DNA from: Bryobacteraceae bacterium
GTDB lineage: Bacteria; Acidobacteriota; Terriglobia; Bryobacterales; Bryobacteraceae
Direction of reading: 5' to 3'
Assembly (NCBI GenBank): GCA_030041985.1
Contig: JASIAM010000137.1
Span: 1 to 64,000 of the forward strand
Length of the DNA: 64,000 nucleotides
Shown here in pieces: positions 44,613 through 46,393 of this stretch. Position numbers and translations under genes: made by a program. The notes under the pieces were generated by a model. The model did not search any database, was not told the DNA's origin, and saw nothing but the letters and a program-made list of their open reading frames with translations. Each line of letters starts with the position of its first letter. The first letter of the stretch is position 1.

Positions 44613-45659
44613 ATGAGCGAGACTACGCAACTTCGCAAACTGACGGCTCACGTAAAAGCGGCGGGTTGAGCGTCTAAACTCAGTCCAAAGGTGTTGGACA
44701 AAGTTCTGGCGTCCCTGCCCCGCTGGGCCAACGAAAACGTGCTGGTTGGGTTTGACACTGCCGACGATGCCGGCGTGTACAAGCTGACGCCGGAGCTCGC
44801 CCTTGTGCAGACCGTAGATTTTTTCACGCCTATCGTGGACGATCCTTACACTTTCGGCGCCATCGCCGCGGCCAATTCGCTCAGCGATGTGTACGCCATG
44901 GGCGGGCAGCCACTCTCGGCGCTTGCTATCTTGGCTTATCCGGCCAAAGGCGATCTGGACGATCTCCAGCAGATTCTCAAAGGCGGCTCGGAAAAAATGC
45001 GCGAGGCCGGCTGCTCCGTGCTTGGCGGACACAGCGTGGCCGATGACGAAATCAAGTTCGGATATGCCGTAACCGGGCGCGTGCATCCCGCTCGTTTCAA
45101 AACTAACGCTGCCGCGCAGCCGGGGGACGCCATTGTATTCACTAAGCCCATCGGCACGGGCGTCATCAGCACCGCGCTGAAGCGGGGCATCGCGGGCGAT
45201 GCTGATGTTGCAGAGGCAACTCGCTCCATGCTCACGCTCAATCGCCTCGCCGCGGAGCAGATGCTGCGCTTTGAAGTCCACGGCTGCACCGATGTCACTG
45301 GATTCGGTCTGATCGGCCATGCACGGGAAATGGCCCTGGCGAGCAACGTCACTATCGAAATCGCGGCCGATCAGGTTCGCCTGCTCCCCGGAGCGCTGGA
45401 GTACGCGGCGCAGGGCGCCTTACCCGGAGGACTTAAAAACAATCGCGATTTCGCCTCGTGCGATGTGGAAGCGGCGTCTCCGCTATCCGGCCCGATGGAA
45501 GATCTGCTATACGATCCGCAAACCTCCGGCGGATTACTGATCACTCTTCCCGAAGCCGATGCCGCCGCACTCACGCAATCGTTCGAAGCGGCATACCGGA
45601 TGGGCCGCGTTGTCCCGCGCGGCGCCAAACCCATCCGTCTCATCAGCACTGCCGGATGA
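44613..45659 (+). CDS. selD: Selenide, water dikinase containing selenocysteine at the active site
   Basis: Makes selenophosphate from selenide and ATP. The ATG at 44613 opens a frame whose codon 19 is TGA (44667-44669). On both sides the protein is typical SelD: K-A-A-G-(U)-A-S-K-L-S-P-K-V-L. E. coli SelD has G-A-G-C-G-C-K-I-S-P there, so TGA stands where catalytic Cys17 is, and Ser replaces the second Cys. Reading resumes without shift through G-F-D-T-A-D-D-A-G-V-Y, L-A-I-L-A-Y-P and the C-terminal A-I-M lobe. Starting at the GTG at 44691 instead would delete the catalytic segment. Total length is about 348 residues including Sec, matching the family. A SECIS-like hairpin follows the TGA. 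DUF72 overlaps its stop by 4 bp. Confidence 0.93.
44667..44669 (+). other. selD: UGA codon read as selenocysteine
   Basis: In-frame TGA between conserved SelD sequence on both sides, at the position of the catalytic Cys/Sec of the family. Known selD genes use either Cys or Sec here, which makes recoding the simplest reading. Confidence 0.9.
44677..44705 (+). promoter_or_regulatory. Bacterial SECIS-like hairpin in selD
   Basis: Six perfect pairs GTCCAA (44683-44688) and TTGGAC (44694-44699) close a five-base loop AGGTG. A 2-by-2 internal loop and a lower stem AACT/AGTT (44677-44680, 44702-44705) extend it. The apical loop begins about 20 bases after the TGA and has G in its second position, which fits the bacterial SECIS rules (loop 16-37 bases after UGA, G within the first two loop bases). 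Confidence 0.8.
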
Positions 45660-46393
45660 CGACGCACCGGCAGGCGGCCGTCCGCATCGGCACTTCCGGC
45701 TGGCATTATCCGCACTGGCGAGGCCCGTTTTATCCAGAGAATTTTTCAGCATCGAAGATGCTCGATTTCTACGCGCGGCAATTTGATACCGTCGAGCTGA
45801 ACAACACCTTCTATCGCCTGCCACCGGAAACAGCTCTCGACGACTGGCGTGGACGGACGCCGGCAGGCTTCCTGTTTGCCGCCAAGGGCAGCCGCTTCCT
45901 CACGCACATGAAGAAGCTGAAGGAACCCGAGCCAGGTATCGCAAAGTACTTTGAGCGAGTGGAACGGCTAGGGCCGAAGCTCGGTCCCGTCTTGTTTCAA
46001 CTGCCGCCCCATTGGGGTGTGAACAGCGAACGCCTGGAGGCCTTTCTCGCGGCGCTGCCCCGCGGCCATCGTTACGCATTCGAACTGCGCGATCCCTCCT
46101 GGCATGTGCCGGAGGTGTACCGGATTCTCCGCCGTCATCGGGCCGCCTTCTGCATTTTTGAGATTGCCGGCTTCCAATCGGGAATCGAAATTACGGCCGA
46201 TTTCACCTATGTGCGGCTGCACGGTCCCGGCGGCGCTTACCAGGGAAGCTACCCGGGCGGCAAGTTGGAGGAGTGGGCCGAGCGCATCCGCCAATGGCGG
46301 AAGGAATTGCAATCCGTCTATGTCTATTTCGATAACGACCAGGCGGCTTATGCTGTCGCGAACGCCCTGGCGCTGAAGCGGCTTATCGAATAG
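45656..46393 (+). CDS. DUF72 (YecE-like) protein
   Basis: 245 residues. ATG at 45656 overlaps the selD stop (ATGA). The TIM-barrel DUF72 start R-I-G-T-S-G-W-H-Y-P-H-W-R-G-P-F-Y-P is clear, as are V-E-L-N-N-T-F-Y-R-L-P, F-A-A-K-G-S-R-F-L-T-H and V-Y-V-Y-F-D-N-D-Q-A. Biochemical role is unknown for the family. Coupling to selD is notable but may be accidental. Confidence 0.9.
   Translation: MTTHRQAAVRIGTSGWHYPHWRGPFYPENFSASKMLDFYARQFDTVELNNTFYRLPPETALDDWRGRTPAGFLFAAKGSRFLTHMKKLKEPEPGIAKYFERVERLGPKLGPVLFQLPPHWGVNSERLEAFLAALPRGHRYAFELRDPSWHVPEVYRILRRHRAAFCIFEIAGFQSGIEITADFTYVRLHGPGGAYQGSYPGGKLEEWAERIRQWRKELQSVYVYFDNDQAAYAVANALALKRLIE

Follow-up and report, generated by a model that had tools for sequence, protein, structure and literature searches.

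The selD gene, coding for selenide, water dikinase (selenophosphate synthetase, SelD), raises the question of how its codon 19, an in-frame TGA, is read: as a stop, as the mark of an error or a mutation, or as selenocysteine (Sec). Within the window, that is the whole stretch of 64,000 nt that was analysed, selD spans positions 44613-45659 of the forward strand and would encode 348 amino acids with Sec at residue 19, up to a terminal TGA stop at 45657-45659. The TGA of codon 19 (44667-44669, forward strand) is the sole internal one and, read as U, gives the translation MSETTQLRKLTAHVKAAG-U-ASKLSPKVLDKV... A GGTGG motif immediately 5' of the ATG at 44613 is a putative ribosome-binding site. When TGA is taken as a stop, ORF calling with table 11 finds a start only at the GTG at 44691-44693 of the same strand, a codon that lies inside the SECIS hairpin described below and is an unlikely start, and the active site is lost, as the sequence-only reading had anticipated.

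The predicted protein matches the NCBIfam model TIGR00476 (selD) over residues 9-315 with 373.5 bits (cut-off 125) and carries the AIRS and AIRS_C domains. In phmmer alignments, its residue 19 corresponds to the first, catalytic Cys of Escherichia coli SelD (3U0O, GAGCGCK), homologous over its full length (237 bits, residues 9-335), and to the active-site residue of Aquifex aeolicus SelD (2YYE, SGCAAK), placing the TGA at the catalytic codon of a complete frame as had been proposed. The E. coli enzyme has Cys rather than Sec, and at the position of the Ser of this protein it carries a second Cys (G-C-G-C-K). The Aquifex protein (2YYE, 2ZOD) is distant (214 bits, phmmer) and its solved chain has Cys at the catalytic site instead of Sec, but its loop S-G-C-A-A-K presents an Ala two residues past that site, like the A-S/A-A found here. 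The earlier remark that the usual second Cys is a Ser thus holds against E. coli but describes no peculiarity of this protein, since the position is Ser, Ala or Gly throughout the orthologs and Ala in Aquifex.

Directly after the UGA, the region 44667-44711 of the forward strand (45 nt) is predicted to fold into a SECIS stem-loop with a minimum free energy of -15.1 kcal/mol (z -3.05 relative to dinucleotide-shuffled sequences). Its core hairpin, GUCCAA-AGGUG-UUGGAC (44683-44699, forward strand), starts 13 nt past codon 19 and comprises a 6-bp upper stem and a 5-nt apical loop, AGGUG, which is located 19-20 nt past the UGA and has a G at its second position. The bSECIS model allows an apical loop of 3-9 nt, an upper stem of 4-16 bp, a G within the first two loop positions and a distance of 16-37 nt from the UGA (PMC13188914), and the selD hairpin falls within these limits for loop size, stem length, loop G and distance. 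This anatomy supports the prediction that the gene encodes a selenoprotein, a SelD of the Sec type with a bacterial SECIS hairpin.

Reading a UGA as Sec calls for dedicated machinery, and the sequence-only reading had expected a full SelA/SelB/tRNA-Sec system. The genome (G000) is a draft of 6.0 Mb in 355 contigs, 98% complete. Both selB (contig C38, 3177-5048; 632 aa, 358.9 bits, cut-off 242) and a bacterial tRNA-Sec gene, selC (contig C284, 1935-2025; 71.8 bits, cut-off 47; anticodon tca, i.e., UCA, with ARAGORN), were found, so that the suggested search went in favor of recoding and a genome devoid of Sec decoding could be rejected; the tRNA and Rfam scans of the 64,000-nt window itself were empty. 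The expectation of a full system stands for close relatives and, as far as selB and tRNA-Sec are concerned, for this genome, but no selA turned up in this draft with TIGR00474, PF03841 or the protein of the same genus at E-values up to 10. A divergent selA was sought in this way too, and the matches were weak, partial and to other proteins.

The survey of selenoproteins beyond selD covered formate dehydrogenase and recovered a gene for a Sec-type formate dehydrogenase-N alpha subunit, FdhA (contig C279, 1736-5032, minus strand; TIGR01553, 980.8 bits, cut-off 814), of the same class as the Sec-containing enzymes of E. coli (1KQF) and Desulfovibrio. Its one in-frame TGA (4411-4409), in the context ENQARI-U-HSS, aligns with a residue written X in 1H0H, the Sec of that enzyme, and with Cys in a chain from Desulfovibrio whose name describes it as selenocysteine-containing. 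This UGA is followed by a hairpin, GUCCCCA-GUU-UGGGGAC, with nearly the same spacing as that of selD; although the gene itself is different, the SECIS-like hairpin has the same form. On its own, this fold does not stand out from what its base composition would give (z -1.87). A working Sec system is nevertheless strongly supported by the occurrence of the same kind of recoding signal in two unrelated genes. A codon-usage scan of the window for other genes spanning a TGA showed no convincing Cys/Sec-like motif, but such a scan is insensitive, as it missed selD itself because of the short stretch before its TGA.

The missing selA is the basis of the alternative that survives best, namely that the Sec system is incomplete and that, selA having been lost, UGA 19 is read as Ser from unconverted Ser-tRNA-Sec, is passed by near-cognate readthrough, or acts as a stop in a decaying selD. 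The gene is also missing from the same-genus drafts G003 and G004, and the gene of elongation factor EF-P, found near selA in relatives, sits in this genome on another contig, in different surroundings and without selA. However, selA scores above cut-off in 52 of the 61 genomes of the first ortholog set described below, including G001 and G002 of the same genus, and G000 retains selB, tRNA-Sec and two TGA-containing genes with intact hairpins. Moreover, in G001, G002 and G005 selA is close to EF-P and to an E1 dehydrogenase gene, and in G000 the latter breaks off at base 2 of contig C195, toward the expected position of selA. An assembly gap is thus the simpler account of the absence of selA and likely the right one, albeit not proven, and loss of the gene with an incomplete system appears very improbable. 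We give equally little credence to the related scenario in which part of the genus lost selA and kept selB, tRNA-Sec and the UGA genes bearing a SECIS, UGA 19 being then decoded as serine, or as Sec made by another synthase.

The reading of UGA 19 as Sec also draws on comparison with orthologs. Two sets were used: a first one of 61 genomes (G000 and 60 relatives), in which the site was readable in 35 orthologs, the selD of the window included, and a second, named set. The latter holds 80 loci, which come mostly from Bryobacterales, Candidatus Solibacter and other Terriglobia and whose genomes are partly shared with the first. The nearest named relatives belong to Bryobacterales and Candidatus Solibacter, in agreement with the acidobacterium-like lineage guessed from the sequence. 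The catalytic codon is TGA in 30 of 35 orthologs and a Cys codon (TGC or TGT) in the other 5 in the first set; it is TGA in 65 and Cys in 13 of the 80 named loci, two being not found (65/78 TGA). Alignment with Cys- and Sec-type SelD, which had been recommended, hence leaves Cys as the sole alternative at the site, no other residue occurring in either set. The same TGA, with flanks such as VKAAG-U-A[SA]KL, is shared by tens of genomes that are ~52-81% identical, and the sequencing error at 44667 that had been named as a possible undoing of the reading did not occur. In many relatives, a TGA count of two could suggest a second Sec, an interpretation that was rejected because the second is the terminal TGA stop.

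Cys-type genes are scattered among Sec-type relatives both in the first set (L021, L025, L036, L039 and L042) and in the named set (L127, L139, L142, L152, L163, L164, L167, L168, L177, L182, L183, L185 and L195), the two lists overlapping in genomes. On the SelD tree, the Sec/Cys label needs five changes, but the starred branches force only two, and we do not claim five independent conversions. Another family (f3; several of G038-G056, loci L100-L102) presents a long ORF of 750-830 aa without TGA that resembles SelD over part of its length (37-42% identity) and is possibly a fused oxidoreductase-SelD. Two relatives at least 90% complete, G028 and G053, lack a convincing selD, a selA that passes the cut-off and a strong tRNA-Sec, and may have lost the Sec trait.

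The hairpin is conserved along with the TGA, nearly all TGA genes maintaining it through their choice among synonymous codons. Orthologs with TGA pair on average 6.5 of 7 stem positions, where synonymous shuffling of these genes leads one to expect 3.3, whereas the Cys orthologs of the first set pair 3.8 of 7 (Mann-Whitney P = 2.5e-4 against the TGA genes, with rows that are not independent). Stem codons hardly change among TGA genes (AGT 26/26, CCA 27/30, TTG 27/30, GAC 29/30) while neighboring codons vary, and 94% of stem cells are paired in register, as opposed to 16-66% when partners are slid. Covariation is slight, because 4 of the 7 pairs never vary. The strength of the hairpin evidence is in the ortholog set, whose members are related, the synonymous-shuffle test on this selD sequence alone being modest (P = 0.0075). 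The coupling of hairpin and TGA is imperfect, since three of the 13 Cys genes of the named set (L142, L163, L182) still form the hairpin, which has mostly decayed in the remainder, and a small number of distant genes with TGA (L184, L200, L201, L204) lack it in this register. A 2006 study described relic hairpins 3' of Cys codons as what is left after a change from Sec to Cys (PMC1794560), and the three retained hairpins suggest that such changes are recent in these genes.

The rival idea of a sequencing error, or of a true nonsense mutation in a gene of the Cys type, with selD being a pseudogene or a truncated gene starting at GTG 44691, accords with the truncated ORF of standard gene calling and with a draft assembly, but is refuted by the joint conservation of the TGA and the hairpin and has a negligible probability, as the same TGA is present in tens of species, the frame 3' of it is intact and conserved, and a protein begun at that GTG would be missing the catalytic loop, its start codon lying within the conserved hairpin. 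We consider, with a probability of about 96%, that selD encodes a Sec-containing selenophosphate synthetase in which Sec would be inserted at UGA 19 through SelB and the SECIS and which would feed Sec synthesis. As anatomy and conservation indicate, SelB would bring Sec-tRNA-Sec to codon 19 under the direction of the hairpin. By homology, Sec19, in the mobile N-terminal loop, would take part in converting selenide and ATP to selenophosphate, which would then be used to make the Sec of SelD and of at least one more selenoprotein of this genome, the formate dehydrogenase-N alpha subunit. Sec is the only selenium use detected among the two traits looked at, Sec decoding and selenouridine, the genome having no match to TIGR03167 for the tRNA 2-selenouridine synthase (ybbB/selU).

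Sec-containing SelD was already known in some bacteria, as the sequence-only reading stated: it was described in 2006 (Zhang et al., 2006, PMC1794560), and Sec was found in 19% of the SelD genes of a prokaryote reference set in 2015, always at this position (Mariotti et al., 2015, PMC4561486). Four selenoproteins of three families were listed in Acidobacteria in 2006 (PMC1794560), and we found no paper naming Solibacter together with selenoproteins in a literature coverage that was incomplete. Bacterial Sec-SelD/SPS2 is the same enzyme with UGA at the same position of the catalytic N-terminal loop and a SECIS just 3', as here; nothing mechanistic differs, and what is particular is the lineage, Bryobacterales, in which examples are numerous and the Sec/Cys state changed more than once. 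The Bryobacteraceae Sec-SelD is therefore a well-supported further case of a selenoprotein type that has been recognized for many years, and it leaves the understanding of SelD or of the Sec insertion mechanism unchanged. Its reading as Sec corrects an annotation in which gene callers would lose the active site, and most of the sampled Bryobacterales SelD genes are selenoproteins. The group also offers a natural comparison of Sec- and Cys-type SelD genes that are close relatives, the SECIS being kept in the former and largely decayed in the latter.

Downstream, a gene for a DUF72 protein (45656-46393, forward strand) overlaps the selD stop codon (ATGA). It was rejected as a conserved neighbor, as a crude motif scan placed such a gene directly 3' of selD in 2 of the 80 loci; a similar gene follows selD at the same-genus locus L019.
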